This document shows positions 17,456-37,129 of a DNA stretch of 37,129 nucleotides, piece by piece. The number at the start of each line of letters is the position of its first letter. Positions within the stretch are counted from its first letter, which is position 1. Made by a program: the position numbers and the translations under genes. The stretch is taken from positions 1 through 37,129 of the forward strand of contig JACZKE010000051.1 of NCBI GenBank assembly GCA_014860225.1, read 5' to 3'. The stretch is from Desulfuromonadales bacterium. Lineage in GTDB: Bacteria > Desulfobacterota > Desulfuromonadia > Desulfuromonadales > BM103. Under the pieces are notes generated by a model. It ran no database searches and was not told the origin of the DNA. It was given only the letters and a program-made list of their open reading frames with translations.

Positions 17456-17488
17456 GTGGCTGCCTCCTTTGAGTCTGAATGCGTGGAG

Positions 17489-19507: not shown

Positions 19508-19738
19508 TTGTATCTCCTCCATATCAGTAAGTGTAAAAGCCCTTGCCTCTCTTCCGGGCAATCCCGCCGCCCATCGTGCCAGCATCGCCTACTATGATTT
19601 TTTCTATCCTCATGGTTGACAAAAACCATTTCAACGCCCGTTCGCTGCGCTCACCCAAGACGCAAAGAAAACCCGGGAAAGACGCTAAGAAGCCCGAAGA
19701 CCGTTTTTTTTGTAAGACCAGGAAACATTGCTTTGACC

Positions 19739-20923: not shown

Positions 20924-21041
20924 GGGTTCAGTCTCCTTCCCAGAGCTTGCTATTATTCATTGAGGTGGAAGGTCACCGCCGATAGAAACTGTTCCGTTCG
21001 TAATCATCAGGTAAACCTATTGCCACACTGGAGAACTATAG

Positions 21042-21057
21042 AGCAAGGAAGGTACCA
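21042..21057 (-). promoter_or_regulatory. Putative sigma-54 (-24/-12) promoter of the thiolase operon
   Basis: Read on the minus strand, TGGTACCTTCCTTGCT has GG and GC separated by exactly 10 bases and matches the TGGCACG-N4-TTGCW consensus at all but two fixed positions. The expected start point is near 21031, giving a leader of about 108 bases. The 20924-21265 interval otherwise holds no gene. Confidence 0.7.
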
Positions 21058-21189
21058 AACAGCTTTCCCTGGCAATTACGGCAAGTACATTTTTCCGCTT
21101 TTCTTGAAAAACGCCTAAAAAAGCCGCTTTCGCGCATCAGGGAAATGGCTGCGAACGTGGGATTTAAAAGTAAAGGGCAGTAAACCCGG

Positions 21190-21212
21190 GTCACAGGTGT
21201 TTCGTTGGTGAC
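21190..21212. promoter_or_regulatory. Candidate activator site (UAS) upstream of thiolase promoter
   Basis: GTCAC (21190-21194) and GTGAC (21208-21212) form a dyad with a 13-base spacer, centred about 170 bp upstream of the predicted start. The right half read on the minus strand is TGTCACCAA. The same dyad and spacer occur upstream of icmF, and the same 9-mer upstream of livG. This fits a shared binding site for the sigma-54 activator encoded at 31589-33352. Confidence 0.55.
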
Positions 21213-21265
21213 ACTTTCTACTGGTGTTTACAGCGGCCGAACGGTTCAAATCTGTGACAAGCCGA

Positions 21266-22405
21266 CTAACAGGCCGACTGTTCCCGCTCCAGCAGCCAGT
21301 CGGCAGCAACCGTCTCGACAGAAACTTCACGCAGAGGCTTACGTGGTCGCGACATTCTGCCATTAATTTTAGCCGGAAAGCGGATTTCGGCCGGCAGAGC
21401 TTCACCTTGCGCAGGTTCCAGCAGCTGCCGTGACATCACCTGCGCATGCCCGGCAACTTCTTCCGGTTCAAGCAACGGCTCAAAGCAACAATCGGTGCCG
21501 GCCAGCCGTTGCACCCAGGCATCGCGCGGCGCTGTAGCGAAAAAGGCCCGCAGTTCCCTGATCAGTGCGGTCTGCGGCATCGGTTCATGCTGCCTGGCAA
21601 TCCATTGCGGTTGCGCGACCGCGGCGCAGAACGCCTGCCAGAACTTGTCCTCGAGAGCTCCAAGTACCACGAATTTTTCGTCAGCGGTGCGGTAAATCTG
21701 GTAGCAGGCCACGCCGCCGGTGATCAGGCCGCGGCCCGGTTCAAGGCTGCATCCTGCGCGACTCACCCCCGCCTGACCGAACGATTGCCAGGAGAGGACG
21801 GTCTCAAAGATGCTGGTGTCGATAGTGCAGCCTTTTCCCTGGCGCTCCCTGCGCAGCAAGGCCGCCAGGATCAGATTGGCCGCCTGCTGGCCGCTGGCGT
21901 AATCGGAGACCGGCGGAAAGGGGATAGCCGGGATTTCCACCGTGCCGGTGTGATGCAGCATACCGCTCAAGGCCATGTATGTCAGGTCATGACCGGCCCG
22001 CTGGCCGGCAGGACCGTCCTGGCCGAAACCGGAGAGCGCACAGTGCACCAGGCGGGGATTGAGGGCTTGCAGGTGAGCGGGACTGAAGCCAAGGCGCTCC
22101 ATCACGCCTGGCCGATATGACTCAAGCAAAACATCGGCAACCTTCACCAGCTCGGTAAAGCGGCTGCGACCGCTCTCGCTTTTCAAATCGAGGCGCACGA
22201 CGGTTTTGCCGGCATTGACTTGTTTATAGAGTGGCGAGAGGCCGTCATCATCGAGAAAGATGAAGGTTCGCATCGGGTCGCCGTCAGGCGGTTCGATCTT
22301 GATCACATCCGCACCGAGATCGGCGAGCAGGCGCGTGGCGTAAGGCCCGGGAAGATACTGGCTGAGATCGAGTACCCGGCAACCCCGCAAGGTCTCGTCA
22401 AGCAT
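21266..22405 (-). CDS. CaiB/BaiF family (class III) CoA-transferase
   Basis: A 379-residue class III CoA-transferase. The N-terminus CRVLDLSQYLPGPYATRLLADLGADVIKIEPPDGDPMR is the family CoA-binding signature, and VNAGKTVVRLDLKSESGR follows. The catalytic aspartate expected in such enzymes falls in the AGHDLTYMALSG segment. It moves CoA between an acyl-CoA donor and a free acid; the substrate is unknown. The ATG at 22405 overlaps the stop of the PaaK-like gene by eight bases, so the pair is coupled. A 48-codon longer frame reads back into that gene and is not used. Neighbouring transporter and ligase genes suggest activation of the same imported acid. Confidence 0.85.
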   Translation of the reverse strand: MLDETLRGCRVLDLSQYLPGPYATRLLADLGADVIKIEPPDGDPMRTFIFLDDDGLSPLYKQVNAGKTVVRLDLKSESGRSRFTELVKVADVLLESYRPGVMERLGFSPAHLQALNPRLVHCALSGFGQDGPAGQRAGHDLTYMALSGMLHHTGTVEIPAIPFPPVSDYASGQQAANLILAALLRRERQGKGCTIDTSIFETVLSWQSFGQAGVSRAGCSLEPGRGLITGGVACYQIYRTADEKFVVLGALEDKFWQAFCAAVAQPQWIARQHEPMPQTALIRELRAFFATAPRDAWVQRLAGTDCCFEPLLEPEEVAGHAQVMSRQLLEPAQGEALPAEIRFPAKINGRMSRPRKPLREVSVETVAADWLLEREQSAC

Positions 22406-23639
22406 CGATTGGCCGGAGGTCTTCAATGACCTTGCCATCGTTGACGAGACTGCCGGCGGGTACAAAGGCCACCTCGCCGCGCAGGTTACAGACCTGACGC
22501 AGCGTGCCCACCACCGCGGCTTCCAGACCTTGCGGAACGTCGTTGGCAATTTCGCAATGAAGCGTCATTGCGTCCACGTCGTTAATCCGCTCGACGACCA
22601 GCCGACCCTTGAGCACCTGCGGGTGCCGGCGCAGCACCTCGGCCACCTGCGAGGGGCGCACGAACATGCCGCGCACCTTGGCGGTCTGATCGGCGCGGCC
22701 CATCCAGCCCTTGATGCGGCAATTGGTGCGACCGCAGGGGCTCGGTCCGGTCAGAATGGCGGATAGATCGCCCGTGGCAAAACGGATCAGAGGATATTCT
22801 GGAGACAGGCTGGTCACGATCACTTCACCGACCTCGCCGTCCGCTACCGGATCGCCGGTGCCGGGGCGCACGATTTCGAGAATGATTCCCTCGTCGACGA
22901 TCATCCCCTCGCGAGCCGATGATTCATAAGCGATCAGCCCGAGGTCGGCGGTCGCGTAACACTGCAACACTGCAATGCCGCGCCCGGCCAAGGTGTCCCG
23001 CAGGCTCGGCGAGAGGTATTCGCCAGTGACCAGGGCCTTGCTCAGGCTGGAGAGATCGATGCCGAGTTCATCGGCCTTGTCGAGAATCATCTTGAGAAAT
23101 GACGGCGTACCGACATAGCCCTGGGGTCGGACGTGTGCCATGACCTGGACCTGCAGCTCTGTCTGGCCGCCCCCGGCCGGGACCACCGCGCATCCCAGCG
23201 CCTGGGCTCCCGCTTCGAGCATCATCCCCGCCGGGGTGAAATGGTACGAAAAACAGTTGTGCACGATCTCACCGGCCCGGAAGCCTGCGGCATGCAGAGC
23301 GCGGGCGAAGCGCCAGAAATCCGGGCGCCGCGCACCGGGCTCGAAGATCGGCCCGGGCGAGGCGAAGATCTGGGTCAGCGCCGGTGGTGCGAGACCTGTC
23401 AGGCCGCCGAAGATCGGCTGTTGCTGTTGACGCTCGATCAGCTCCGACTTGCGCAGCAGCGGCAGCGCCTCAAGGGCGCTGCGTCGGATCATGGTGGCGG
23501 CATCGACGCCGGCAAGCAGCTCTGCAAAGGCCGGTGCCTGCTGTTGGGCGTGAGCGATTTGCGCTGCAAGCTGGGTGAACAGTTCCGCCTCGCGCTGCTC
23601 TGGTGGGCGGGTTTCGAGGGAATCGTAAAAGTCACTCAT
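22398..23639 (-). CDS. PaaK-like AMP-dependent ligase family protein, degenerate P-loop
   Basis: A 413-residue protein resembling phenylacetate-CoA ligase. The C-terminal motifs are good: RFATGDLSAI, and GRADQTAKVRGMFVRPSQV, the hinge and PaaK C-terminal lid. The N-terminal Ser/Thr/Gly-rich phosphate loop (SSGTTGKP in PaaK) is replaced by ASPGPIFEPGARR near residue 93, and the A5 motif reads CYATADLGLIAYES. Adenylation may be altered, or this is a distinct subfamily of the adenylate-forming enzymes. GTGGAG precedes the ATG. It is coupled to the CoA-transferase and lies downstream of livF beyond a palindromic element. An aromatic or other organic acid is a plausible substrate. Confidence 0.75.
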   Translation of the reverse strand: MSDFYDSLETRPPEQREAELFTQLAAQIAHAQQQAPAFAELLAGVDAATMIRRSALEALPLLRKSELIERQQQQPIFGGLTGLAPPALTQIFASPGPIFEPGARRPDFWRFARALHAAGFRAGEIVHNCFSYHFTPAGMMLEAGAQALGCAVVPAGGGQTELQVQVMAHVRPQGYVGTPSFLKMILDKADELGIDLSSLSKALVTGEYLSPSLRDTLAGRGIAVLQCYATADLGLIAYESSAREGMIVDEGIILEIVRPGTGDPVADGEVGEVIVTSLSPEYPLIRFATGDLSAILTGPSPCGRTNCRIKGWMGRADQTAKVRGMFVRPSQVAEVLRRHPQVLKGRLVVERINDVDAMTLHCEIANDVPQGLEAAVVGTLRQVCNLRGEVAFVPAGSLVNDGKVIEDLRPIDA

Positions 23640-23830
23640 GGCTGCTCCACTTGTAAACCTGAATTACCGGCTGTCTGACCATTTTGCAGGAAAAGTGTAC
23701 CAGGGTACCGATGTGGCCTGCGTCCAACGTGTTACTTGACTTCCCGCATTCCACACCGGCCCCCTGGTACAAGCCGTATGGACGAGAAATAGTAGGGCGA
23801 TGATATCGCACGGTCACCTTGCCCTCTTGA

Positions 23831-23948
23831 GGTGACCGAAAAAGGTTCGGATGCAAGGCTTGCGCAGGGGTGAGGCCTGCAGGCGTAGCGGAGCTACGTC
23901 GAAGGGAACCCCAAGTATAACGCCGCAGACGAGCCTTTCTCGGTCACC
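23831..23948. repeat. MITE/REP-like palindromic element between livF and PaaK-like gene
   Basis: GGTGACCGA (23831-23839) and TCGGTCACC (23940-23948) are exact inverted ends, and the match extends to 17 of 19 bp (AAAGG(T/C)TCG inside). A perfect hairpin CGTAGC-GGA-GCTACG sits at the centre. It stops four bases before the livF stop codon. No coding capacity. The 23640-23952 interval contains no gene. A further GGTCACC at 23812-23818 faces the left end. Confidence 0.6.
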
Positions 23949-23952
23949 GAAC

Positions 23953-24774
23953 CTACATCCAACGCTTGCGGCGCTTATACGACTTGAGGTTTTTGAAGGA
24001 TTTACGGTCCTTGTCGCCGCCGGACAGGTAAAACTCCTTCATATCCTCGTTATTCAGCAGCTCTTCGCCAGTGCCGTCGATGGCAATCTTGCCGGATTCC
24101 ATGACGTAGCCGTAGGAAGCGCAGCGCAGCGCCATATTGGCATTCTGTTCAACCAGCAGCATGGTGATTCCCTGCTCCTGGTTGATACTGCGGATGATGC
24201 CAAAGACCTCTTTGACCAGAAGTGGTGACAGGCCCATGGATGGTTCATCAAGCAGAATCATTTCCGGGCGGGCCATGACCGCACGGCCGATTGCCAGCAT
24301 CTGTTGCTCACCGCCCGAGAGATAGCCGGCCAGACCGGTGCGCTCCCTGAGCCGCGGGAAATAGTGGAAGACCTTGTCGATATCGTCCTTGATGTACTTG
24401 TCGCGCCGGGTGTAGGCCCCCAGGCGCAGGTTCTCGATAATGGTCATGTCTTCGATGATGCGGCGGCCTTCCATGACCTGGAATATCCCGCGACGCACGA
24501 TATCGTCCGGATCGCGGTTGCTGATCGATTCTCCCTTGAAATGAATGGAGCCCTTGGTCACCTCGCCGTCCTCGGTCTTGAGCAGTCCGGATACGGCTTT
24601 GAGAGTCGTCGATTTGCCGGCGCCGTTCGGCCCGAGCAGGGTGACGATCTCCCCCTTGGGTACTTCCAGGCTGATGCCGCGCAGCACAAGGATAACGTCG
24701 TCATAAACCACTTCGATGTTGTTGATCGACAGGATGGATTCTTTGATTTCGGTTTTTTCCAGTGCTTCACCCAT
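23953..24774 (-). CDS. livF: ABC transporter ATP-binding protein, LivF type
   Basis: A 273-residue ATPase of the branched-chain amino acid/organic acid ABC family. Walker A GPNGAGKST, signature LSGGEQQML, Walker B MILLDEPSMGLSP and the H-loop region LLVEQN are all intact. The C-terminal tail is unusual for LivF: about 20 residues rich in Lys/Arg (DKDRKSFKNLKSYKRRKRW). The N-terminus also has a short acidic lead before ILSINNIEVVYDD. AGGAGA precedes the ATG. It is the last transporter gene, separated from the binding-protein gene by 126 bp with two hairpins. Confidence 0.9.
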   Translation of the reverse strand: MGEALEKTEIKESILSINNIEVVYDDVILVLRGISLEVPKGEIVTLLGPNGAGKSTTLKAVSGLLKTEDGEVTKGSIHFKGESISNRDPDDIVRRGIFQVMEGRRIIEDMTIIENLRLGAYTRRDKYIKDDIDKVFHYFPRLRERTGLAGYLSGGEQQMLAIGRAVMARPEMILLDEPSMGLSPLLVKEVFGIIRSINQEQGITMLLVEQNANMALRCASYGYVMESGKIAIDGTGEELLNNEDMKEFYLSGGDKDRKSFKNLKSYKRRKRWM

Positions 24775-24795
24775 TGTCTTTCTCCTCTTGACAAG

Positions 24796-24889
24796 GCTTC
24801 AAATTCCAGGTTGACGGTCTGCAGCACACGCAGAATCGTCAACCTCGAATTTCAAGCACCGGAGGGACGGTACTGTGCACCGTCCCTCC
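24796..24889. other. Two consecutive hairpins between binding protein and livF
   Basis: Arms 24796-24816 and 24837-24857 pair at 19 of 21 positions (core AGGTTGACG/CGTCAACCT). Next to it GGAGGGACGGT (24861-24871) pairs perfectly with ACCGTCCCTCC (24879-24889). On the minus (transcribed) strand neither stem is followed by a U run, so they fit RNA processing or 3'-end protection of the upstream binding-protein message. On the plus strand the second stem is followed by a T tract and would be a good terminator. Confidence 0.65.
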
Positions 24890-24900
24890 GATTTTTTAGC

Positions 24901-26148
24901 TTACCATCCGAGCCAATCGTCGCGGCGAGGCACGTTGACCGTTGCTTCCTTGTTGAATTTGAAATCACCACCGTTGTACGTGGTGGTATAGATCGTAACT
25001 TCGGTCGTGCCACGATGATCTTCGCTGGTCCAGGTGGACGGCTGGCAGACGCCTTCCAGTCCGGCAGGCACGTGGTCTTTCATCTGCTCCATGCCTTTCT
25101 TGATGTTCGGCCCGGTAATGCCGCCATCCATCTTCTCAGCAGCAGCCATGGCGTCTTTCATGAAGTAGACGGCACAAATTCCGCGCATGTAATGCAGGTT
25201 GCGGTAGGTTTCGTCGTTGCCCGCAGATTGTTTGGAGATGGCCCGAACCAGGGTCATCCCCGGCGCATCACTCTTCCATGAGGGCGCAAAGAGGGGTACG
25301 GCAACGCCATCGCCGGATTCCTGGGCCGCCTTGATGGAGTTCTCATCCCAACCCCAGACATTCGCCATGAACTGGGGATTAGCGCCAACCGTACCGCAGG
25401 AGTTCAGCAGCGAGATGTTGGAGCCGGCGGTGTTGCCCATATAGGCGTAGTCGGCTCCGGAATCCTTAAGGGTCAGGCACTGGGCTTTGGCATCGCCGGG
25501 TTTGAGATCATAGACGATCGGGTTGAGGACTTCGAAGCCGAGTTCCTTGGCATACTCAGCACAGGCTTCCTTGGGGGCATTCGGATAAGGATGGTTGGCG
25601 CCCATGTGGATAAATTTCGGTGTGCCTTGTTTGCCCTTGGCTTTCCAGTCATCAGCAGCCCACTGCACGAGGCCGCGGCAGGTATCAGAGTAGGAAGCTC
25701 CGTAGAAGAAGTTGTAGGGTGCCGGGGACTTGGTCTTGGGCGACTTGCCGGTCGGATCGGTGAGATGGCCGGAATAGGAGGCCGAGAAATAGGGGATCTC
25801 ATCTTTGGCGACGAACTGGACAAGGGCTTCCGTGTCGGCGGTACCCCAGCCCTGGATTGCCACTGGCTCAAGGCCGGAGAGCCACTTCTTGTAGGTGGCG
25901 ATAGCCTGTGGTGCCTTGTAGGAGTAGTCAACGGTTTCATAGTCAAGCAGTTTGCCGTTGATCCCGCCATTCGCGTTGATGTAATTCATGGCGTCGGCGA
26001 CGCCGTTGCCATAGGGGACGCCGACATCCGAAGTTGGTCCGGTGTAGCAGGCCAGGTGTCCCACCGGAATCTTGTCGGCAGCAGTTGCCATGGTTGAAAA
26101 ACCAAAAATCGCCAGTAGAGCTGTTCCACAGAGTAACGTTTTGCGCAT
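24901..26148 (-). CDS. Periplasmic ABC substrate-binding protein, LivK type
   Basis: A 415-residue periplasmic-binding-protein type 1. A signal peptide is clear: MRKTLLCGTALLAIFGFSTMATA, with cleavage probably before ADK. The mature protein starts IPVGHLACYTGPTSDVGVPYGNGVADAMNYINANGGING, the standard family opening. Seven cysteines remain after cleavage (LACYTG, DTCRGL, KEACAE, AQCLTL, NSCGTV, GICAVY, GVCQPS), unusually many, suggesting disulfides. AAGGAGG precedes the ATG. Family members bind branched amino acids, amides, or aromatic and aliphatic acids; the acyl-CoA synthetase in this operon points to a carboxylic acid. Its gene is flanked on both sides by RNA hairpins, consistent with higher protein output than the membrane parts. 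Confidence 0.9.
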   Translation of the reverse strand: MRKTLLCGTALLAIFGFSTMATAADKIPVGHLACYTGPTSDVGVPYGNGVADAMNYINANGGINGKLLDYETVDYSYKAPQAIATYKKWLSGLEPVAIQGWGTADTEALVQFVAKDEIPYFSASYSGHLTDPTGKSPKTKSPAPYNFFYGASYSDTCRGLVQWAADDWKAKGKQGTPKFIHMGANHPYPNAPKEACAEYAKELGFEVLNPIVYDLKPGDAKAQCLTLKDSGADYAYMGNTAGSNISLLNSCGTVGANPQFMANVWGWDENSIKAAQESGDGVAVPLFAPSWKSDAPGMTLVRAISKQSAGNDETYRNLHYMRGICAVYFMKDAMAAAEKMDGGITGPNIKKGMEQMKDHVPAGLEGVCQPSTWTSEDHRGTTEVTIYTTTYNGGDFKFNKEATVNVPRRDDWLGW

Positions 26149-26193
26149 GACGTTTTCCTCCTTCTCATCGTTGATGATATTTGCCGGGCTACT

Positions 26194-26249
26194 GGGGAGA
26201 CATCTCCCCGGTCGAATAATCCGCGACCCCGGACAGCCATGTCCGGGGT
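26194..26249. other. Two hairpins between livM and the binding-protein gene
   Basis: GGGGAGA (26194-26200) and TCTCCCC (26203-26209) make a tight stem with a CA loop. ACCCCGGAC (26226-26234) and GTCCGGGGT (26241-26249) form a perfect 9-bp stem. No U tract follows on the minus strand. They sit in the 108-bp gap just before the binding-protein gene and may define a processed 5' end. Confidence 0.6.
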
Positions 26250-26256
26250 AATTGGT

Positions 26257-27321
26257 TCAGTATGAAAATGGATACAGTTTCCAGTAGTTCTTGATCATCC
26301 GCCAGCGGTGAGCCAGACCGTCCGGCTCAAAGATCAGGAAAAGGATGATGGCCAGACCTATGGCCATCTCTTTGATATAGGCCAGAGCCTGGGTCAGTGC
26401 GGTACTTTCACTGCCGACCAGATGGACGCCGAACTCCATGACTTCCGGCAGCAGGACCATGAAAATCGTCCCCAGCATGCTCCCCATGACGGATCCCAGG
26501 CCACCGATGATCACCATGCCGAGGAACTGAATGGAGAGGATCAAGGTAAAACCTTCGGCGGAGACAAAGCCCAGGTAATGACCGAACAAAGCGCCGCCGA
26601 TACCCGCATAAAAAGAAGAGATGCCAAAGGAAAGGATGCGGTACTTGTTCAGGTTGATGCCCATGATTTCGGCTGACAGATAATGATCGCGCACTGCGAT
26701 GAAGGCCCGTCCGTCTCGGCTGCGCATTAGGTTGGCGCCGGCAATGAACATGACGACCACGTAGAAGAGCACCACGAAGAAGAACGACTTGTCGCTGTTC
26801 ATCTCATAACCGTAAATCGAGAAGGGGCTGGCCATGGCGCCGGCGGAACCACCGGTAAACCATTCGGCGCGGGCAAAGAAATCTTCGAGGATGTACTGTG
26901 AAGCCAGGGTGGCAATGGCCAGGTAGAGTCCCTTGATGCGACCGGCCGGGATACCGACCATCAGGCCTACGGCCATGGTCAGAAGCCCGGCTAGCGGAAT
27001 GGCGAAAAACACCGGGATACCGGAATTGTTGCTGATCCAGGCTGATGCAAAGGCGCCCAGGCCGAAGAACGCGGCATGGCCAAGAGAAATTTGGCCGGTA
27101 AAACCGACGACAATGTTCAAACCCAGGGCTGCAATACCATAGTAGCCGATCTGAATCAGAAGGTTCAGATAGTAGGCATCCAGGCACAGCGGCGCCAGAA
27201 GCAGCAGCAGCACAGAAACGACCGCGACCCGTCGTGCCAGGGGGGTCGGAAAGATGGTCATGTCCGCCTGGTAGGTGGTGCGGAATTCTCCGCAACGCAT
27301 GCGTGAATGAGCAGATGCCAT
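26257..27321 (-). CDS. livM: ABC transporter permease, LivM type
   Basis: A 354-residue inner-membrane permease with about nine hydrophobic segments. GYYGIAALGLNIVVGFTGQISLGHAAFFGLGAF is the LivM family signature near residue 57, and the segment near 265 (LILSIQFLGMVIIGGLGSVMGSMLGTIF) carries the GGxGS coupling motif. A 25-residue hydrophilic N-terminal extension precedes the first helix. GAGAGGA lies upstream of the ATG at 27321, inside the end of livH; the genes are 3 bp apart. It pairs with LivH to form the transport channel. Confidence 0.92.
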   Translation of the reverse strand: MASAHSRMRCGEFRTTYQADMTIFPTPLARRVAVVSVLLLLLAPLCLDAYYLNLLIQIGYYGIAALGLNIVVGFTGQISLGHAAFFGLGAFASAWISNNSGIPVFFAIPLAGLLTMAVGLMVGIPAGRIKGLYLAIATLASQYILEDFFARAEWFTGGSAGAMASPFSIYGYEMNSDKSFFFVVLFYVVVMFIAGANLMRSRDGRAFIAVRDHYLSAEIMGINLNKYRILSFGISSFYAGIGGALFGHYLGFVSAEGFTLILSIQFLGMVIIGGLGSVMGSMLGTIFMVLLPEVMEFGVHLVGSESTALTQALAYIKEMAIGLAIILFLIFEPDGLAHRWRMIKNYWKLYPFSY

Positions 27322-27324
27322 CTA

Positions 27325-28218
27325 TTAAATCCTCTCGATATCTTTGGTGCCGAACAGGCCGTAGGGCTTGATCATGAGAATGATGACCAGGGCATAGAAG
27401 GGTGCAATGTTGTACATGTTGCCTAAATGCAGCCACTGACTGTCAAAAAACTCGGCCAGGTTCTCGAGCACACCGATCAGCAGACCTCCGACGATGGCAC
27501 CGACGATCGAGTCGAGACCACCGAGAATGACTACCGGAAAAACCTTGATACCGATGAAAGAGAGTGCCGATGAGACACCGTTGACCATGCCGATGACCAC
27601 CCCGGCCAGGGCTGAGACTACGGCAGAAATCGCCCAGGCAGCGGCAAACACATGCTTGACCGAAATGCCGAGGCTTTGCGCAATCTGCTGATTGAACGCT
27701 GTGGCGCGCATTGCCAGACCCATACGCGAATACTTGAAGAAGAAGTAAAAGGCGATCATGATGACCAGAGAAACGCTCACACTCATGATGTAGGCGGTTT
27801 CCACCTGCAAGCCGCCAATGTTGATCGAATCGGTTTCGAAAACCTTGGGGAAAGCCTTGGTGTAGCCACCGAAAATCCAGGAGACCAGTGCCTGGAAGAA
27901 CATCGACAGGCCAATGGTGACCATGATCACGGAAATAATCGGCTCACCGATCATCGGCCGCAGCACCACAACCTGCAGGACCACGCCGAAGATCATCATG
28001 AAAACCAGAGTCAGCGGGAAGCCCACATAAAAGGGCAGCTCAAACTTGACCAGCATGGCCCAGCAGGTCCAGGCACCGATAAGCAGAAACTCCCCCTGGG
28101 CAAAGTTAACCACCCGGGTCGATTTGTAGATCAGCACAAAACACATGGCCACGACCCCGTAAAGGGTGCCGACAATCAGGCCGTTGACAATCATCTGAGT
28201 CAACAATTCAAAATTCAT
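27325..28218 (-). CDS. livH: ABC transporter permease, LivH type
   Basis: A 297-residue inner-membrane permease. The N-terminal IVNGLIVGTLYGVVAMCFVLIYKSTRVVNFAQGEFLLIGAW is the LivH hallmark, and VVILGGLDSIVGAIVGGLLIGVLENL is the C-terminal coupling region. GGGAGA is six to seven bases before the ATG. It lies 20 bp after the acyl-CoA synthetase gene in the same operon, an arrangement in which the imported acid could be converted to its CoA ester on entry. Confidence 0.93.
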   Translation of the reverse strand: MNFELLTQMIVNGLIVGTLYGVVAMCFVLIYKSTRVVNFAQGEFLLIGAWTCWAMLVKFELPFYVGFPLTLVFMMIFGVVLQVVVLRPMIGEPIISVIMVTIGLSMFFQALVSWIFGGYTKAFPKVFETDSINIGGLQVETAYIMSVSVSLVIMIAFYFFFKYSRMGLAMRATAFNQQIAQSLGISVKHVFAAAWAISAVVSALAGVVIGMVNGVSSALSFIGIKVFPVVILGGLDSIVGAIVGGLLIGVLENLAEFFDSQWLHLGNMYNIAPFYALVIILMIKPYGLFGTKDIERI

Positions 28219-28238
28219 GGTTGTTCTCCCGGCACCGT

Positions 28239-30200
28239 TTACAGAACTTTTTTCATAGGCTCTCTTACAGCATGGTCATGTGCAGGCCCCAGATCCACAA
28301 TCCGGACATCAGTCTGAACCCGTGATTTGTTGCCATCCTGAAAAGTAATCACCGTGTCAATGTGCACCACATCCAAGTCGGAATAGATGGTATCGATGAT
28401 ATCGGCATATTTTTCTTTGATGACGCCTCGACGGACTTTCCTGGTTCTGGTCAGTTCACCGTCATCGGCGTCAAGCTGCTTGTAGAGCAGCAGGAATTTG
28501 CGAATCCTCTGCGCATCAGGCAGAGTTTCATTGACCGTCTCCACCTCTTTTTTTACCAATTCGTAGACGCTTTCCTGGGCGGAGAGGTTGATGTAGTTGG
28601 TGAAAGCAATGTTGCGCTGTTCGGCCCATTTGGCCACGATTTCGAAGCGGATACAGATGATCGCCGACAGGTAGTCGCGGCCATCGCCCTGGACAACCGC
28701 CTCGGCAATGAACGGCGAGAACTTGAGTTTGTTCTCGATGAACTGGGGAGAGAATTTGTCGCCGTTCGAGGTTTCCGACAGGTCGCTGATGCGGTCGATG
28801 ACCACCAGATGGTTGTTCTCTTTCTTGAAGTAGCCGGCGTCACCGGTATGCATCCAGCCGTCTTCAAGGGCCTTGTCTGTCTCTGCCTGGTTCTTGTAAT
28901 AGCCGAGAAACATGCCGCAGGTCCTGGCCACAACTTCACCGACGCCGTTATGATCAGGATTGTCAATGCGCACCTGGGCATTGCGGAACGGGATGCCGAC
29001 GCTGTCAAAATCGACATCATCGGCTTCATGGATGGTGTAGGCTCCGGCCAGTTCGGTTTGGCCGTAGAGTTGACGCAAAGGCACCCCCATGGCCAGAAAG
29101 AATTTGAAGGTGTCGGGTCCAAGGGCGGCGCCGCCGGTCGCGGCGGAGCGCAGGTAACTAAAGCCGAGCCGGTCCTTCAAGGGTCTGAACAGCAGCCAGT
29201 AGGCCAGTGTTGACTGGTAGCCCTGCCCCCTGGCAGAGGCCTTGTCGGCAAGCTTCATGGCGAACCGGTACATCGCCTGTTTGAATCTGGTCGCATCCAT
29301 CATCTTCGCCTTGACATCGGCGGCGATCGATTCCCAGACGCGCGGCGCCAGAAGCACAAAGGTCGGGCCGATTTCACGCAGGTCCGACATCATGGTCTCC
29401 GGTTCTTCGACAAAATTCACGATGATCCTGCTGATCAGTGCCTGGGCCACGGCATACACCTGTTCCATGATCCAGGGGAGCGGCAGCACCGAAACATAGT
29501 TGTCGCTCGGATACTTGGGGTCGGCCTCCAGGTAAGCGACACAGTGCTCCAGCATGGGTCCGGCCTGCAGCATGGCCAGCTTCGGATTGGAGGTTGTCCC
29601 CGAGGTCGGGCAGAGAATGGCCACGTCCTCGGCTTTGCCCTGATTGACCAAATGCATATAAAGCCCGGGCTGTTCATCATCGAGCTGTTGACCACTGGCC
29701 ATCAGGTCAAGATGACTCATCAGCCGGGGATCGTCATATTTGCGCATGCCGCGCGGGTCGCAATAAATAATATGTTCGACACAGGGGCATTCCGCAGTGA
29801 TCTCGAGGACCTTATCGACCTGCTCTTCATCCTCGGCAATAATGATCTTGGCACCGGCGTAGTTGATCAGGTAGGCGACTTCTTCATTGAGAGAGTCCTG
29901 ATAGATACCGAAGATCATCGCCCGCAGGGCATGCGAGGCGACTTCGCCATAGACCCATTCGGGCCGGTTGTCACCGATAATGCCGACCGAATCGTTGTGA
30001 GCGATCCCCAGCTTGTGCATACCGAGGGCAAACAGCTTGACATGCCGGTTGTAATCAGCCCAGGTGTAGGCGTTCCAGATGCCGTAGTCCTTCTCCCGCA
30101 GTGCGACCTCATCCGGCCAGTTGGCGGCATTGTGAGCAAGCAGTTTGGGAAAGGTATCGAAGGTTTTGACGTCGGTATATGCCGAAGGCTGCAGGGTCAT
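28239..30200 (-). CDS. Long-chain-type acyl-CoA synthetase (AMP-forming)
   Basis: A 653-residue adenylate-forming synthetase. The P-loop is CPTSGTTSNPK near residue 206; YGQTELAG (A5), DGWMHTGDAGYF (A7) and VIDRISDLSETSNGDKFSPQFIENKL (A8) are all present, as in FadD/ACSL-type enzymes of about 600-650 residues. It activates a fatty or other carboxylic acid with ATP and CoA. The ATG at 30200 overlaps the livG stop (ATGA) and has GAGGAGG upstream, so it is coupled to livG. A synthetase between livG and livH is unusual for an amino acid importer. A hydrophobic acid substrate is inferred from the context; actual specificity is unknown. Confidence 0.92.
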   Translation of the reverse strand: MTLQPSAYTDVKTFDTFPKLLAHNAANWPDEVALREKDYGIWNAYTWADYNRHVKLFALGMHKLGIAHNDSVGIIGDNRPEWVYGEVASHALRAMIFGIYQDSLNEEVAYLINYAGAKIIIAEDEEQVDKVLEITAECPCVEHIIYCDPRGMRKYDDPRLMSHLDLMASGQQLDDEQPGLYMHLVNQGKAEDVAILCPTSGTTSNPKLAMLQAGPMLEHCVAYLEADPKYPSDNYVSVLPLPWIMEQVYAVAQALISRIIVNFVEEPETMMSDLREIGPTFVLLAPRVWESIAADVKAKMMDATRFKQAMYRFAMKLADKASARGQGYQSTLAYWLLFRPLKDRLGFSYLRSAATGGAALGPDTFKFFLAMGVPLRQLYGQTELAGAYTIHEADDVDFDSVGIPFRNAQVRIDNPDHNGVGEVVARTCGMFLGYYKNQAETDKALEDGWMHTGDAGYFKKENNHLVVIDRISDLSETSNGDKFSPQFIENKLKFSPFIAEAVVQGDGRDYLSAIICIRFEIVAKWAEQRNIAFTNYINLSAQESVYELVKKEVETVNETLPDAQRIRKFLLLYKQLDADDGELTRTRKVRRGVIKEKYADIIDTIYSDLDVVHIDTVITFQDGNKSRVQTDVRIVDLGPAHDHAVREPMKKVL

Positions 30201-31015
30201 CAAACGACCTCCTCATCTGCTTGCTGCACTTCATCATCGAAGCCGACGCCGAGATAGGCGCTTTTGACCTGCTCGTTCTCCATGACTTCATCAGGCAATC
30301 CGGCACAGATCTTTCTGCCGAAATCAAGCACCATCACCCGATGAGAGATATCCATGACTACGCCCATGTCGTGCTCAATCATGATGATCGTCATACCCCA
30401 CTCTTCATTGAGATCAATGATATAGCGGGCCATGTCCTCTTTCTCTTCCAGGTTCATGCCCGCCATCGGTTCGTCAAGCAGGATCAGGTCGGGGCGTAGC
30501 GCAACCGCTCTGGCCAGCTCAACCCGCTTGCGCAATCCGTAGGAAAGCGTTCCGGCAATCTCTTTGCGGATATGGGCAATCTCGAGAAAATCGATAATGT
30601 CCTCAACCTCACGGCGATGCACCAGCTCCTCTTTGCGAGCTCCGGACAACCAGTACAATGAACCGCTCAGAAAGTTGTTCTTCAACAGGTGATGGCGGCC
30701 AACCAGGATATTGTCGAGCACAGACATGTGGTTAAACAGCGCCAGGTTCTGAAATGTGCGACCGATACCGAGCTTGCAGCGGTCGTTGGGCTTCAGGCCG
30801 ATAATACTGTTTCCCTTGAAGGATATTTGACCTTTGTTGGGTTGATAACGACCGGAAATGCAATTGAGCATCGACGTCTTGCCTGCGCCATTTGGGCCGA
30901 TAATCGAGAAAAGTTCTCCCGTACGGACCTCAAAAGAAACTTCGCGCAGGGCATGCACCCCGCCAAAAGACAGAAATATATTATCAACTTGCAATAGCGG
31001 TTGATTCTCGCTCAT
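30200..31015 (-). CDS. livG: ABC transporter ATP-binding protein, LivG type
   Basis: A 271-residue ATPase. Walker A GPNGAGKTS, signature LSYGLRKRVEL (LSYG in place of LSGG), Walker B LILLDEPMAGMNLEE and IEHDMGVVMDISHRVMVLDFG are intact, as in LivG. The frame is open 44 codons further upstream, but that part has no family match. AAGGAAGG just before the ATG at 31015 sets the start. It is the first gene of the transporter operon, preceded by a sigma-54-like promoter at 31094-31109 and a 570-bp region that separates it from the activator gene. Confidence 0.92.
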   Translation of the reverse strand: MSENQPLLQVDNIFLSFGGVHALREVSFEVRTGELFSIIGPNGAGKTSMLNCISGRYQPNKGQISFKGNSIIGLKPNDRCKLGIGRTFQNLALFNHMSVLDNILVGRHHLLKNNFLSGSLYWLSGARKEELVHRREVEDIIDFLEIAHIRKEIAGTLSYGLRKRVELARAVALRPDLILLDEPMAGMNLEEKEDMARYIIDLNEEWGMTIIMIEHDMGVVMDISHRVMVLDFGRKICAGLPDEVMENEQVKSAYLGVGFDDEVQQADEEVV

Positions 31016-31093
31016 GGTGCCTTCCTTCTGGAGTTGCCAGCGGCAACAGGCTGGTGGCGCTGAAACGACCTGTTGTGACAGTGAGTGCAAAGT

Positions 31094-31109
31094 TGCAAAA
31101 CGGATACCA
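31094..31109 (-). promoter_or_regulatory. Putative sigma-54 (-24/-12) promoter of the livG operon
   Basis: On the minus strand TGGTATCCGTTTTGCA shows GG-N10-GC with a perfect TTTTGCA -12 element; the -24 element is TTTGGTA, identical to that of the thiolase promoter. The expected start is near 31083, about 68 bases before the livG ATG. Apart from these signals the 31016-31588 interval contains no gene I can support. Confidence 0.65.
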
Positions 31110-31220
31110 AACAATGTTTTACAAAATTGGGACGATCCCGTCAACAAGCTAAGACACTGATCTTAATGAAAAATACCGCTAAATTAAAAGCACTTCAGCA
31201 AATTTCTCTCAGCAAGACAT

Positions 31221-31318
31221 GTCACCAATCGTTAACATCGTCACAACAGAATGTTAAAAGCAATGACACCAGAGCGCCAGAGCCTCCAATCGGCAAAGCC
31301 GAAAATCGGTTGGCCGAT
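31221..31318. promoter_or_regulatory. Candidate activator-binding region upstream of livG
   Basis: Two direct GTCAC half-sites lie at 31221-31225 (as TGTCACCAA from 31220) and 31240-31244, about 140 and 160 bp upstream of the predicted start. Further up, 31290-31318 holds three overlapping small dyads built on TCGG/CCGA: TCGGC-AAA-GCCGA, CCGA-AAA-TCGG and ATCGG-TTGG-CCGAT. The half-site matches those at icmF and thiolase, but the inverted partner is missing here. Confidence 0.4.
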
Positions 31319-31588
31319 GCAGACAAATATCTGGCAGATGTCGTATCACAATAGCAGAGGCGACCAGGGTGAACCAGGTCGCCAGAGACAAAACGGACCG
31401 GGTGCATTGAGCATCCCGGCACAGTAAATGTAATGAAACACCCTGACCTCTGAAAGAGTGCGGAGAAAAATGTGAGCTCCCGTTTATCCTTGAGAATAGA
31501 TCTTCACCCAGCACTCTTCACCCGGTAAAATGTGTAAGAATCCATTGAATCGACTGAGCATGCCAATCGTCACGGAGTCAGTCACCTG

Positions 31589-33352
31589 TCAGTGCAGGTT
31601 GTATTTCTGCAGCTTTTTGTAAAGTCCCGGGCGGGAAATCCCCAAAAGGTTGGCCGCGACCAGTTTGTTGCCGCCGACCTTTTCCATAGCTCCAAGGATC
31701 AGATCTTTTTCTATCTCTTCCATAATCTCCTGCAGCGAACGTGTTCCCAGATCCTTGACAGCATCCAGACTGAAGACACCGCTGCCGAAGACGGCTGGTT
31801 CATCGGAACGATGAAGTTCGGCAATCGGTGCGGGGAGATCATACAGCCTGATAAACGGCCCGTTGACCATATTGAAGGCACTCTCGATAGCACTGCGCAG
31901 TTCACGGACGTTCCCCGGGAAGGGGTAGGCTTTCAATGCCGCCCAGGCGCGGGAGCTGAGTCCCTGAACGTTCAGATCGAACTCGGCATTGAACAGCTCG
32001 ACAAAGTGCCTGGTAAGATAGAAGACGTCCTCCGGTCGCTCGCGCAACGACGGAATCGGCAACGCCACCACGTTTATACGGTAGTAAAGGTCAGAGCGCA
32101 GCCGCCCCTCCTTGACCAGAGCCAGAGCGTCACAATTGGTCGCCGTTACGAAACGGACATCAACAAAACGGATATCCTGGCTGCCGAGCGGAGCAACTTC
32201 GCGTTCCTGCAGAACCCGTAGCAGTTTGGCTTGCATAGAGAGAGGCATCTCGCTGATTTCGTCAAGGAAAAGCGTACCGCCATGAGCCTGCTCGAATTTG
32301 CCGATCTGCCCGCCGCGTCTTGCCCCCGAGAACGCTCCCTCGACATAGCCGAAAAGCTCTGCCTCCAGCAGGTTTTCTGGGATGGCGGCGCAATTGACCC
32401 TTACGAAGGGTCCATCACAACGTCGACTGGCAGAGTGAATCGCGTGCGCAAACAGCTCTTTACCGGTGCCGCTCTCACCTGTCAGCAACACTGTCGAAGA
32501 ACGGTCGGCAATCCTCACCAGACGTTCCTTGAGATCCCGCATGGTCTGACCATGACAGACAATCTGTTCGACATTGTAGAGCGCAGTCGGTCGATGGCCA
32601 GCGATAGCACGGCGGCTGGATTTACCTTCTAATGATGGAAAGTTGCCGCTCAGGCGGGAGATACCCGGACCTTCTCTTAGCTGTATCTTGCCATAGGCTC
32701 CAAAGGTCTTGCCATTCTTTATCAGCGGCCAGCGACTGGCAATTATTTGCCGGCCGTTCAATTGATGCGGTTCACCAATTTCAGCCTTTCCGGAATCCAT
32801 GACCTTGGGCAGACGCGACAGGGTTGAATCCGGGTAGGCCTCGTTGACATGGCGCCCGACCATTTCGACGACCTGCATACCCAGGATGTCGGCGAACTCG
32901 CGGTTGACCATCAGGACAAACCCGGCACGATCAACCAACAGAATTCCGCCCCCTGCATCCAGAGAAAAAGGATCAATAGACTGCACAAAATCATGGAGGG
33001 TCATGACGGCTTCATTACCACGGTCAAGAGCTGTCAACACCAGCTCCCCTCCAGACAGGGTTCCATCAGCACCGCCGGGCAGGTATTCTGCCACATACCA
33101 GCGATCATCGAGCGGAACCGGCACAGATTTGAAGCCAAAGCCTTTGGCCAGGAGGGCATGAAAGTGGCCCAAAGCGCCAATCTGCTCGAGGTTCCTCCCG
33201 ACTAAAGAGGCCTGCCCCTGCCCACCAAAAGGGCTGTTATCGCCGGCCGATACAACCTTCAGGTGACGATCAAGTCCAATAACCCATTGAAGTGAAGTCT
33301 CATTTGATTTTATGACAGAATCCAGACGTCGCAGCGATGATGACGATTTCAT
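31589..33352 (-). CDS. PAS-containing sigma-54-dependent transcriptional activator
   Basis: A 587-residue enhancer-binding protein. The N-terminal half has one or two PAS-like domains (about 20-110, and 130-245 with [26 protein letters not shown]). The AAA+ domain has Walker A GESGTGKE at 292-299, the sigma-54 contact loop GAFSGA at 339-344 (GAFTGA with Ser for Thr) and Walker [13 protein letters not shown]. The C-terminus is a Fis-type helix-turn-helix, [27 protein letters not shown]. No receiver domain is present, so activity is probably set by a ligand bound to PAS. AAGGG within a 10-bp palindrome precedes the ATG. It lies between the livG operon and icmF, both with sigma-54-type promoters, and is their likely regulator. 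Confidence 0.93.
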
Positions 33353-33439
33353 CTAAGGGCCCTTCAATATACTGAGTAACACTATTGTTTATCCGGCGGA
33401 TGCAGTCCATGGCTATTTTGTATTTAAATGTTATTTACG

Positions 33440-33458
33440 ACAGTAACAATAACACTGT
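33440..33458. promoter_or_regulatory. Dyad upstream of the activator gene
   Basis: ACAGT (33440-33444) and ACTGT (33454-33458) form a 5-bp inverted repeat in an AT-rich stretch about 90 bp upstream of the activator start. It could be an operator for the activator gene. Short and unsupported by a second copy. The 33353-33950 interval contains no gene; it also holds the icmF promoter and dyad. Confidence 0.2.
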
Positions 33459-33728
33459 TTTACCTTTATTGGAAAGCGAAAGCGCTACAATTAATACAAC
33501 TTTGATGAGGCTTAAAAAATCGTCCTGAGACATACTTGCAGTGCTCTTTTCGTTTACACAGGCTGCCTGCAGCGACCTTGCAACCACTGGCAAAGCAAGT
33601 TTTTAACAATTATAACAGACGAAAAGCATTGAGTGTCTGGAAGTTCTAAATAAAGCCATTGGCAGGTTGCAGCAGTTGGCCGCTCCGGGAAAAATGTAAA
33701 CAAAGGTAGACATTCAAGACGGCCAAGC

Positions 33729-33751
33729 GTCACCATTATGCTCACCGTGAC
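33729..33751. promoter_or_regulatory. Candidate activator site (UAS) upstream of icmF
   Basis: GTCAC (33729-33733) and GTGAC (33747-33751) with a 13-base spacer are the same dyad found upstream of the thiolase promoter. The left half reads GTCACCA. The centre is about 104 bp upstream of the predicted icmF start, within the normal range for sigma-54 activators. Confidence 0.55.
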
Positions 33752-33817
33752 CGGGCTGGAAACCTGGAAAATCCATGTCTGTGCCGTTTCCCATGTATTC
33801 AGCAGGTTCTCCCTGCA

Positions 33818-33833
33818 TGGCATGACACTTGCT
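33818..33833 (+). promoter_or_regulatory. Putative sigma-54 (-24/-12) promoter of icmF
   Basis: TGGCATGACACTTGCT matches the TGGCACG-N4-TTGCW consensus at every fixed position except one (T for C in the -24 element), with GG and GC exactly 10 bases apart. The expected start is near 33844, giving a leader of about 107 bases before the icmF ATG. Confidence 0.8.
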
Positions 33834-33950
33834 AAACTATGTGACGGATAAAACATCGTTCGTACAAATTGACAACACCAGACACAGCAAATCCTGCCGG
33901 CGCGCCAGAAACAGATCAAGCACAGGCAAGGCCTATGAGGAGAAGACGAC

Positions 33951-36900
33951 ATGGAAGCAGCTGTCTACCGACCGCAACACCCGATTCGCTTTGTAACAGC
34001 AACCAGCCTTTATGATGGCCATGATGTGTCAATCAACATCATGCGCCGGATCATGCAGGATTCAGGGGCCGAAGTGATCCATCTCGGGCATAACCGTTCG
34101 GTGCACGAGGTTGTTGACGCGGCGATCCAGGAGGACGCCCAGGGGATTGCCGTCAGCTCTTACCAGGGCGGGCACATGGAATTTTTCAAGTTCATGCATG
34201 ATCTTTTACAGGAGAAGGGCGCCGGACATGTGCGGATCTTCGGTGGTGGCGGTGGCGTGATTCTGCCGGAGGAGATCAAGGAACTTGAAGAGTACGGCAT
34301 CTGCAAAATCTTTTCTCCCGAAGACGGCCGACGTATGGGACTGCAGGGAATGATCAACTATCAACTGGAGCAGTGTGACTTCGCGCCTCCACGCCAGCTT
34401 GATCAGGACCTGGAGAGGTTGCCGCAGCACGACCCGCAGGCGGTAGCGCGACTGATCACCGCTGCCGAATTGCTGGTTCAGCAACCCGACGAACAGCTGC
34501 AGTCGACGCAGAAGAAGGTCCGTGAACTGGCCGGACAGGTGCCGGTGCTCGGCATCACCGGCACTGGCGGTGCGGGCAAAAGCTCCCTGACCGACGAGCT
34601 GGTGCGTCGTTTTCTGCGAGACTTCGAGGACAAGTCGGTGGCGATATTATCGGTCGATCCGACCCGTAAAAGGACCGGCGGAGCGCTGCTCGGCGACCGC
34701 ATCCGCATGAATGCCATCGACACACCGAGGGTGTTTATGCGCTCGCTGGCGACCCGCGATTCGCGCACGGAATTATCGGCCGCGATCAACGAGGCAGTCG
34801 AGGTACTCAAGGCGGCGGTTTTTGATCTGATCATCGTCGAGACCAGCGGTATTGGCCAGGGCAACGCCGGGATAGTCGAGGTCTGTGATGTCTCTCTTTA
34901 CGTGATGACCAGCGAGTTCGGTGCGCCGACCCAGCTGGAAAAAATCGACATGCTCGACTTCGCCGACCTGATCGCCCTGAACAAGATGGAGAAACGCGGC
35001 GCCGACGATGCCTTGCGCAATGTGCGCAAACAATACCGGCGCAACCGCCATTTGTTTGAAGCGAGCGACGAAGAGCTGCCTGTTTACGGCACCATTGCCA
35101 GCCAGTTCAACGACATTGGCGTCAACCGGCTCTACCGCGCTCTGATCGACAGGTTGAACGACAGGTGCCAGCTCGGTTGGCAGTCGCAAATGGTGGTTGG
35201 CGAGGGACACAGCATCGCCCAGCTGATCATCCCGCCGGAGCAGATCAGCTACCTGTCAGAGATCGCCCATACCGTCAAGGCTTATCGCAAACAGGTCAAA
35301 GAACAGATGCAGATCGGGCAACAGCTGTACCAGCTTGCCGGAGCGCAGCGACTGCTTGTGGAAAAATGCGGCTGCCAGGTCGCAGATCTCGATGCATTGC
35401 TTGTCCGGACCGAAAGTAAGCTCAGCGAGGAGAACCGCAAGCTGCTGCACAAGTGGCCGGAGATAAAAAAGTCCTATCGGGAGAAGGTGATGATCACCAG
35501 AGTGCGCGACAAGGAGATCCGCACCGAGCTGACCGGCACAACCCTTTCCGGGACGCGCATCCCCAAGGTCTGCCTGCCGGACTTTGCCGACTACGGCGAA
35601 ATTATCCGCTGGTGCATGAAAGAGAATGCCCCCGGTTTCTTCCCCTATACTGCCGGACTTTTCCCTTTCAAGCGCACTGCCGAGGATCCCAAGCGCCAGT
35701 TTGCCGGCGAAGGGACTCCGGAGCGCACCAACCGCCGCTTTCACTATTTGACCCGTGACGACGACGCCAAACGGCTCTCGACCGCATTTGACAGCGTCAC
35801 CCTTTATGGTGAGGATCCGGACGAGCGTCCGGACATTTACGGCAAGGTGGGAATGAGTGGCGTATCGATCTGTACGCAGAACGACATGGACAAGCTGTTT
35901 GCCGGCTTCGACCTCTGCGATCCGATGACCTCCGTCTCGCTGACCATAAACGGCCCGGCACCAATGCTGCTGGCCATGTTCATGAACACCGCCGTGCGCC
36001 AGCAATTGGAAAAGTTCCGATGCGAGAAAGGTCGGGAACCCTCGAAAGAGGAACAGGTCGAGATCCAGAGCTGTACCCTGCAGACGGTGCGCGGTACGGT
36101 TCAGGCCGACATCCTCAAAGAAGATCAGGGGCAGAATACCTGCATCTTCACAACCGAGTTTGCCCTGCGCATGATGGGTGACATCCAGCAGTATTTCATT
36201 GATCAGAAGGTGCGCAACTACTATTCAGTCTCGATCAGCGGCTACCATATTGCCGAAGCGGGAGCCAACCCGATCAGCCAACTGGCTTTTACGCTCTCCA
36301 ACGGCTTCACCTTTGTCGAATACTACCTGTCGCGCGGCATGCAGATCGATGAGTTTGCCGGCAACCTGTCGTTCTTCTTCAGTAACGGCCTCGACCCCGA
36401 ATACACGGTTATCGGACGGGTCGCCCGGCGCATCTGGTCGGTGGTGATGCGCGACCGCTACGGAGCCAACACCAAGAGCCAGATGCTCAAATATCACATC
36501 CAGACCTCCGGCCGGTCACTGCACGCCCAGGAGATGAACTTCAACGACATCCGCACCACCCTGCAGGCACTGATGGCGATTTATGATAACTGCAACTCGC
36601 TGCACACCAACGCTTATGATGAGGCGATCACCACCCCCACCGAGGAATCCGTACGCCGGGCGATGGCAATCCAGATGATCATCAACAAGGAGCTTGGCCT
36701 GGCCAAAAACGAAAATCCTCTGCAAGGGGCTTTCATCGTCGAGGAGCTCACCGACCTGGTCGAAGAAGCAGTGCTGGAGCAGTTCGAGCAGATAAGCCAG
36801 CGCGGCGGCGTGCTCGGGGCGATGGAGACCCTGTACCAGCGAACCAGGATTCAGGAAGAGTCGATGCTCTACGAGCACAAGAAGCACACCGGCGAGCTGC

Positions 36901-37129
36901 CGATCATCGGTGTCAACACCTATCTGAACCCGAAAACCGAGGGAGAGGGGTACGCAATCCCCGGCGAGCTGGCCCGTTCAACCGAAGAGGAGAAACGTCA
37001 CCAGATCACCAACCTGCGCGTATTCCAGGCGGAACACGCCATGGAAGCTCCCGAAGCACTCAAACGGCTGCAGAAGGCCGCCGAAGATGGCGGCAATATC
37101 TTTGCCGAGTTGATGGAAGCGGTCAAAGT
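33951..37129 (+). CDS. icmF: Fused isobutyryl-CoA mutase (B12- and G-protein-containing), 3' end outside window
   Basis: The first 1059 codons of a protein usually about 1090 residues. A B12-binding domain comes first (about 12-150) with the DxH motif YDGHDVS (Asp22, His24, the lower cobalt ligand). A MeaI-type G-protein chaperone domain follows, with Walker A GTGGAGKS at 204-211. The mutase barrel runs from about 530, with [11 protein letters not shown] and [17 protein letters not shown]. Phe571 and Gln728 stand where methylmalonyl-CoA mutase has Tyr and Arg, the known switch to isobutyryl/butyryl-CoA. The enzyme interconverts isobutyryl-CoA and n-butyryl-CoA with adenosylcobalamin. The G4 motif reads NKME (344-347) rather than NKxD. 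GAGGAG eight bases upstream sets the start; a sigma-54-type promoter lies at 33818. Confidence 0.95.

Follow-up and report, generated by a model that had tools for sequence, protein, structure and literature searches.

A putative sigma-54 regulon of acyl-CoA catabolism in a Desulfuromonadales genome, with three promoters, a shared upstream site and a neighbouring activator

In a contig of a Desulfuromonadales bacterium (JACZKE010000051.1; 37,129 nucleotides, 0.94% of the 3.94-Mb genome), referred to here as the window, three -24/-12 boxes of the sigma-54 type stand above icmF, above an operon for a Liv-type ATP-binding cassette (ABC) transporter that begins with livG, and above a thiolase operon. 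All three have a common site further upstream, the boxes are conserved in relatives, and they co-occur with the gene of a sigma-54 activator that lies in the window between the first two. Based on these observations we consider it highly probable that the three units form a sigma-54 regulon of acyl-CoA catabolism, in which the neighbouring activator would induce all of them together. We infer from sequence that the activator binds the common site, that the promoters depend on RpoN and that the units are co-induced. This kind of regulon is already known from the clostridial CrbR, and the present one is a further case. For a group mostly seen as metagenome assemblies, it would link acyl-CoA catabolism to a regulator with its binding site and to three operons as targets, and would tie IcmF to a specific pathway.

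Three sigma-54 boxes and their conservation

The box of icmF was located at 33818-33833 on the plus strand (TGGCATGACACTTGCT), that of the livG operon at 31094-31109 on the minus strand (TGGTATCCGTTTTGCA) and that of the thiolase operon at 21042-21057 on the minus strand (TGGTACCTTCCTTGCT). The first-pass annotation had placed GG-N10-GC boxes at these positions and strands, and all were present. Each shows GG at -24 and GC at -12 with 10 bp between them, close to consensus, and the -24/-12 consensus TTGGCACGGTTTTTGCT reported for Geobacter sulfurreducens (PMC2725144) fits them. The bare GG-N10-GC rule was uninformative, with 464 matches in the window against 456 expected, as was a sigma-54 consensus allowing up to three mismatches (187 against 184 expected). 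When the stricter pattern TGGYAY-N5-TTGCW was used, exactly three matches were found in the window, which are the three boxes, against 0.17 expected, and three or more were reached in 0 of 100 shuffles; by this pattern the boxes do stand out from random matches. Genome-wide the strict pattern gave 45 matches, three of them in the window, and the reversed pattern 13. The Y positions were picked after the boxes had been seen and therefore the window count is partly fitted. Conservation in relatives is the stronger evidence.

A scan of genome contigs returned 26 loci. The activator gene was followed by livG and the acyl-CoA synthetase gene in 16 of them, with activator identities of 48-85%; these syntenic loci come from the genomes of 15 records (L041 and L043 share one). 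On the other side of the activator a divergent icmF was present in eight of the 16; five have a methyltransferase-like gene there instead, no further than about 2.2 kb away, and three had too little sequence on that side. In L053 and L054 icmF lies about 2 kb from the activator with another gene between. The sigma-54 box was found above livG in 17/17 loci, the window and the most distant relatives included, and above icmF in 7/9, again with the window counted. Contig L068 likewise shows box and site where those of icmF would lie, but stops short of the gene. At the thiolase promoter the box was kept as TGGTATCTT-N-YTTGCT in all five close relatives with upstream DNA (L132-L136). Seven other loci had been fetched around the DUF6125 gene and the thiolase lay outside the stretch; in L140 just 333 bases were available above thiolase. 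In the promoter alignments the site and the box appeared as islands of conservation, with 51 (thiolase), 37 (livG) and 38 (icmF) positions per 280 conserved at the 85% level. The block was also present in L062, a record named Phycisphaerae, with the activator frame broken and runs of N-like ambiguity; this contig is perhaps mis-binned or poorly assembled.

The livG box sits inside the longest open reading frame (30200-31147, TTG start). An open in-frame ATG follows the box after 92-103 bp in 11 of the 17 loci (94 bp in the window, at 31015) and after 137-174 bp in three further ones. Matches of homologues to the long reading frame begin at residue 39-45 in seven of 16 cases and at residue 2-37 in the other nine. 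The retained ATG and the late-starting matches make the ATG at 31015, below the box, the very probable start of livG, and we re-assigned the gene to 30200-31015 on the minus strand.

In close relatives the thiolase promoter drives a longer operon in which etf genes precede thiolase (Pfam on L132 and L134). The operon of L132 and L136 also includes a membrane-type iron-sulfur oxidoreductase, and in L119 hbd follows thiolase. The transcript leader below the box (20924-21041; GATGATTACGAACGGAACAGT) is conserved, with few changes in L132-L134, and is possibly an RNA element.

To relate promoters and activator we compared 22 genomes of the family. An activator orthologue of at least 80% identity was found in seven, and two more genomes have one at 48%. 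The livG promoter pattern occurred in 7/22 genomes, exactly the seven with the close orthologue, and its reversed control in none of the 22. The thiolase/etf promoter pattern was detected in five genomes, all of them among the seven activator-bearing ones. G013 (L133) seems to carry a form of it that differs by a single base, and it was not found in G015, an activator-bearing genome. G013 and G024 appear to be one genome, as their coordinates match. Two genomes, G001 and G007, contain livG and the synthetase at 70-73% without such an activator; neither a strict box nor a site was found there above livG, and only weak matches were seen 0.7-1 kb away in L148. As the genes travel as one block, what the co-occurrence demonstrates is that they are linked and share a fate; it does not demonstrate binding.

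The neighbouring activator and the shared upstream site

The activator gene (31589-33352, minus strand; 587 amino acids) lies between the icmF and livG boxes, as stated in the first-pass annotation. In the Pfam scan the protein matched the sigma-54 AAA+ domain (PF00158, 223 bits), HTH_8 (50.2 bits) and PAS (26.9 bits). It contains a Walker A motif, GESGTGKE, at residue 292 and the loop GAFSGA, a variant of GAFTGA, at residue 339. With a sensor domain, an AAA+ domain carrying Walker A and loop, and a Fis-type helix-turn-helix (HTH), it has the make-up of an NtrC-type enhancer-binding protein. GAFSGA (residues 339-344) is common to the window and the nine readable relatives of at least 70% identity (L041-L049); L051-L055 have GAFTGA and L050 has GAFTDA. 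The GAFSGA form is counted among working variants in PMC4641369 and PMC6615313. The HTH stretch SRPGLYKKL was identical in the window and in all 15 readable proteins of the 16 syntenic relatives. For rpoN, one match was found in the genome; in G. sulfurreducens RpoN is described as essential (PMC2725144).

Paralogous activators of 46-47% identity occur in G016 and G018 (loci L139 and L140), where the HTH stretch reads SRPGIYKKL. They adjoin genes for thiolase, hydratase and acyl-CoA dehydrogenase, a box TGGCACCGTCTTTGCT is found some 250 bp downstream of the activator gene, and inverted TGT/ACA sites above a box near them score 14.2 and 14.5. This suggests that activators of acyl-CoA catabolism form a wider subfamily. 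Two closer assignments of the window activator were rejected. The AtoC model, which has a cut-off of 714 bits, reached 328, and no receiver domain was present in the Pfam scan; PrdR (NCBIfam NF041552) was the best-scoring model, with 355 bits against a cut-off of 795. A search of solved structures gave matches only to the general AAA+ activator family.

The putative activator site of icmF is located at 33695-33712 on the plus strand (TGTAAACAAAGGTAGACA), 123 bp upstream of the -24 box. The corresponding sites of the livG operon (31220-31237, minus strand; TGTTAACGATTGGTGACA) and of the thiolase operon (21215-21232, minus strand; TGTAAACACCAGTAGAAA) lie 128 and 175 bp above theirs, so that all three promoters of the window have the common site upstream at an enhancer-like distance, at least about 100 bp. 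Above icmF the pattern TGTNNAC-N4-GTNNACA was present 100-130 bp above the box in 7/7 box-bearing loci, and a related site is found above livG. At the thiolase promoter TGTAAAC was kept in 6/6 aligned loci. The longer form TGTAAAC-N8-AAAGTGTCACYAA was exact in five of the six and one base off in its last part in L135; a second conserved block beside this site was recognised from the alignment (21197-21213, minus strand; TGTCACCAACGAAACAC).

The site was scored with matrices built from icmF-side sites only, one from eight sites and one from the sites of seven relatives (L068 included). With the seven-relative matrix the best 18-mers of the window were the icmF (22.98), thiolase (16.18) and livG (15.07) sites, and the fourth scored 8.28. 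With the eight-site matrix the three regions gave 23.6 (icmF), 15.7 (thiolase) and 15.0 (livG); the observed score was reached in 0 of 200 shuffles for each region. None of the 42 other box-pattern matches in the genome reached the window sites, the maximum being 11.1. Four of the six thiolase loci exceeded all of these 42 controls, and one, at 10.6, had one control above it.

A first-guess site, GTCAC-N13-GTGAC, matched the genome exactly at three positions, of which two fall in the window; with up to one mismatch it was found 116 times against 156 for the reversed control, and it was replaced by TGTNNAC-N4-GTNNACA. On contig C20 a near miss of the latter (one mismatch) lies between two divergent boxes; of the flanking genes, one encodes a spermine-synthase domain and the other has no Pfam match. 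This near miss was not accepted as a regulon member, being compatible with chance. A site for IHF between enhancer and promoter, common with such promoters and not required, received no support, as its consensus was present in two of 31 upstream regions scanned and in none of the three of the window.

Proposed regulation and alternative explanations

In the mechanism we propose, the one-component activator (PAS sensor, AAA+ ATPase, Fis-type HTH) would bind an 18-bp inverted repeat of the TGTNNAC-N4-GTNNACA type, 123 to 175 bp above the -24/-12 promoters. From there it would loop to the closed sigma-54 polymerase and open the complex by ATP hydrolysis. Three units would be induced together, namely the Liv-type transporter with its built-in acyl-CoA synthetase, the operon for thiolase, hydratase and acyl-CoA dehydrogenase (with etf and hbd in relatives), and IcmF, which would supply the thiolase operon with butyryl-CoA made from isobutyryl-CoA. 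Direct regulation by the neighbouring activator and the inducing signal are what we infer; the proposal of a single regulon, made in the first-pass annotation, gains support from the conservation of boxes and gene order, from the co-occurrence and from the shared upstream site. Uptake of carboxylates by the transporter is plausible, and a Liv-type system could carry branched-chain amino acids instead. The combination of Liv transporter, synthetase, beta-oxidation set and IcmF agrees with short acids being imported and activated. With less confidence, we suggest that the substrates are short, possibly branched acids or branched-chain amino acids. In the L048 genome an operon for 2-oxoacid:ferredoxin oxidoreductase with an acyl-CoA ligase lies near icmF, and in G001 (L149) such oxidoreductase genes directly precede livG, which points to catabolism of branched-chain amino acids or acids.

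Sigma-54 control of butyryl-CoA genes has been proposed in Clostridiales for the CrbR regulon (PMC6615313), and in Clostridia and Bacilli the predicted sigma-54 targets are described as enriched in beta-oxidation genes (PMC12316311). The upstream activating sequences of the CrbR group are inverted TGT/ACA repeats with a 10-12-bp spacer, and the site found here is TGT-N12-ACA; it also fits the wider set of fifteen clostridial activator groups for which TGT/ACA sites with 10-12-bp spacers are given (PMC6615313). The signal of CrbR is stated as unknown in that study. There are differences, since the butyrate-forming direction has been proposed for the CrbR operon, and its table row lists cotX-gntT next to it and neither IcmF, a Liv-type transporter nor an acyl-CoA synthetase (PMC6615313). 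The CrbR regulon belongs to a different phylum and the likeness is drawn by description, not by alignment of the CrbR sequence. AtoC, which controls atoDAEB of E. coli, is likewise an activator of short-chain fatty acid catabolism (PMC3118216). The activator of the window is a one-component PAS protein. AtoC, in contrast, forms a two-component system with AtoS. BkdR of Bacillus is a sigma-54 activator tied to branched-chain acyl-CoA metabolism; it is not known to be linked to IcmF or to an ABC transporter. A difference from PrdR is that no proline reductase was present among the window genes scanned. The nearest studied genomes for which sigma-54 regulons have been reconstructed are those of Desulfovibrio vulgaris, for its sigma-54 regulome (PMC4641369), and G. 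sulfurreducens, for its RpoN regulon (PMC2725144); the terms acyl-CoA, fatty acid and branched-chain were not found in the main text of either paper. Searches of the open-access literature brought up no paper linking sigma-54 to IcmF.

Several observations weigh against the proposed regulon. The livG relatives, 16 loci from 15 records, belong largely to one clade, so their counts are not independent. No icmF box was found in L053 and L054, and the 1.2 kb upstream of thiolase in the distant loci L054 and L139 (65-67%) contained no box comparable to that of the window. The site motif was first spotted by eye, before the matrix was made. With the eight-site matrix 7/17 livG loci scored at least 15 and 10/17 below 8; among the low ones, the site is shortened by a 1-bp deletion in two, and the distant loci show a TGTTAAC block with another spacing. 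One of the six thiolase loci scored 7.3, with four controls higher, and the site is entirely missing in L158 (G012), which is one of the five genomes that have the thiolase/etf pattern. The exact site pattern occurs at four places in the genome against two for the reversed control, and is by itself no genome-wide regulon marker; only icmF among the four has a strict sigma-54 box nearby on its contig. The etf and hbd genes are absent from the thiolase operon of the window. The promoter and leader have been kept there, although the genes that the promoter serves in relatives are missing. The best matches elsewhere in the genome are 68% (etfA) and 60% (hbd) identical, both on contig C14, which also carries a thiolase 66% identical to that of the window. 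Finally, a first look at the genome gave 36 candidates for activator-like proteins.

These candidates leave room for another explanation, in which the promoters depend on sigma-54 and one common activator, which would be a different enhancer-binding protein, the neighbouring gene being a bystander. Related activators could conceivably recognise each other's TGT-ACA sites. We regard this as improbable, as the livG pattern and the close orthologue are found in the same seven genomes, the two genomes with livG and synthetase but no orthologue show no strict box or site above livG, and even at 48% identity the activator is still found next to the livG operon. It is very unlikely that the promoters are real but answer to separate signals, the shared site being a coincidence of short inverted repeats. 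Spacing and half-sites do vary between the promoters and between livG loci, where the ten low scores belong, and recognition by eye preceded the matrix; yet with a matrix made only from icmF-side relatives the livG and thiolase sites of the window take ranks two and three in 37 kb, far above the next. That the boxes are nothing but chance GG-N10-GC matches has next to no probability in our view. The loose rule, whose matches in the window hardly exceed the expected number, would allow it, but the strict pattern, the conservation and the co-occurrence do not fit with it.

A second palindrome, TAAAACANNGTT, raises a further alternative. It was found at about the expected start point of icmF (33849-33860, plus strand; TAAAACATCGTT; exact in 6/9 icmF loci), touching the -24 box of livG (31110-31121, minus strand; TAAAACATTGTT; exact in 13/17 livG loci) and about 100 bp above the activator gene (33451-33462, minus strand; TAAAACAGTGTT). 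The last copy is exact also in L069 and L070 and is absent from all eight relatives with icmF beside the activator. The placement at the livG box and the icmF start suggests a repressor site. Genome-wide there are 13 places, three of them in the window, against nine for the reversed control, so the palindrome is not enriched overall. We scanned the proteins beside seven of the ten other places and found mixed neighbours: a Liv-type binding protein (contig C17, with the copy about 100 bp above its gene), NiFe hydrogenase with archease, hemerythrin, a beta-eliminating lyase, an AhpC-type protein, a DUF1302 protein and a regulator of the IclR type with a 3-hydroxyacyl-CoA dehydrogenase next to it. 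The last pair lies on contig C64, where the two genes are divergent and a copy of the palindrome, TAAAACAACGTT (L092; 24767-24778), adjoins a TTGACA about 125 bp above the start of the IclR-type gene. Among the neighbours scanned only this protein suggests a repressor, and it is a candidate for the second palindrome. The core AAACANTGTTT, at livG, resembles the operator of KdgR, a repressor of the IclR family, which we treat as a lead and not as support.

One could accordingly picture sigma-70 promoters under a repressor that binds TAAAACANNGTT, with the sigma-54 boxes secondary or relics. The three copies in the window and the IclR-type candidate on contig C64 speak for it, as does the palindrome above livG in L149, which persists there without a strict sigma-54 box. 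Against it, the livG boxes were present in all 17 loci including the most distant, the window thiolase promoter has no copy, and the excess over the reversed control is slight. Of the alternatives named so far we find only chance matches less credible than this one, which we place just below separate signals. The repressor site can also be combined with the sigma-54 regulon. In such a two-layer control, which we put forward tentatively, the PAS activator would sense an acyl metabolite and fire the three sigma-54 promoters, and a repressor on TAAAACANNGTT at the livG box and the icmF start, possibly the IclR-type protein of contig C64, would veto two of them. The system might then be a dedicated branched-chain acid regulon, a doubtful suggestion to the same degree, in which transport, activation, rearrangement of the carbon skeleton by IcmF and beta-oxidation would proceed together, and only if both conditions hold. 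If true, this would give IcmF a concrete role, that of feeding isobutyryl units into butyrate oxidation.

Genes of the three units and other features of the window

The icmF gene (33951-37129, plus strand) encodes a fused isobutyryl-CoA mutase/GTPase and its 3' end is cut by the contig end at 37129. The protein scored 1856 bits with NCBIfam NF045497 (cut-off 1500), and the Pfam scan gave three domains, the fused B12-binding, MeaB-like GTPase and mutase parts of IcmF. The livG unit runs on the minus strand. The livG-type ATPase is followed by the AMP-binding acyl-CoA synthetase (28239-30203; best NCBIfam model FadD11, under cut-off), two Liv-type permeases, by position livH (27325-28218) and livM (26257-27321), a substrate-binding protein with Peripla_BP_6 (24901-26148), the permeases and the binding protein being recognised by Pfam scan, and an ABC ATPase that is livF by position (23953-24774). 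A PaaK-like AMP-binding enzyme (22398-23639) and a family III CoA-transferase (21266-22549) complete the unit, both conserved neighbours. The thiolase unit, also on the minus strand, consists of thiolase (19739-20923), enoyl-CoA hydratase (18725-19585), two acyl-CoA dehydrogenases (17549-18706 and 16307-17527) and a DUF6125 protein (15714-16310), a conserved operon member.

The same window contains genes for the gamma, alpha and beta subunits of a 2-oxoacid:ferredoxin oxidoreductase (10712-13841, plus strand), which score under the equivalog cut-offs. Between livF and the PaaK-like gene an inverted repeat, GTCACC-N12-GGTGAC, was observed at 23813-23836.

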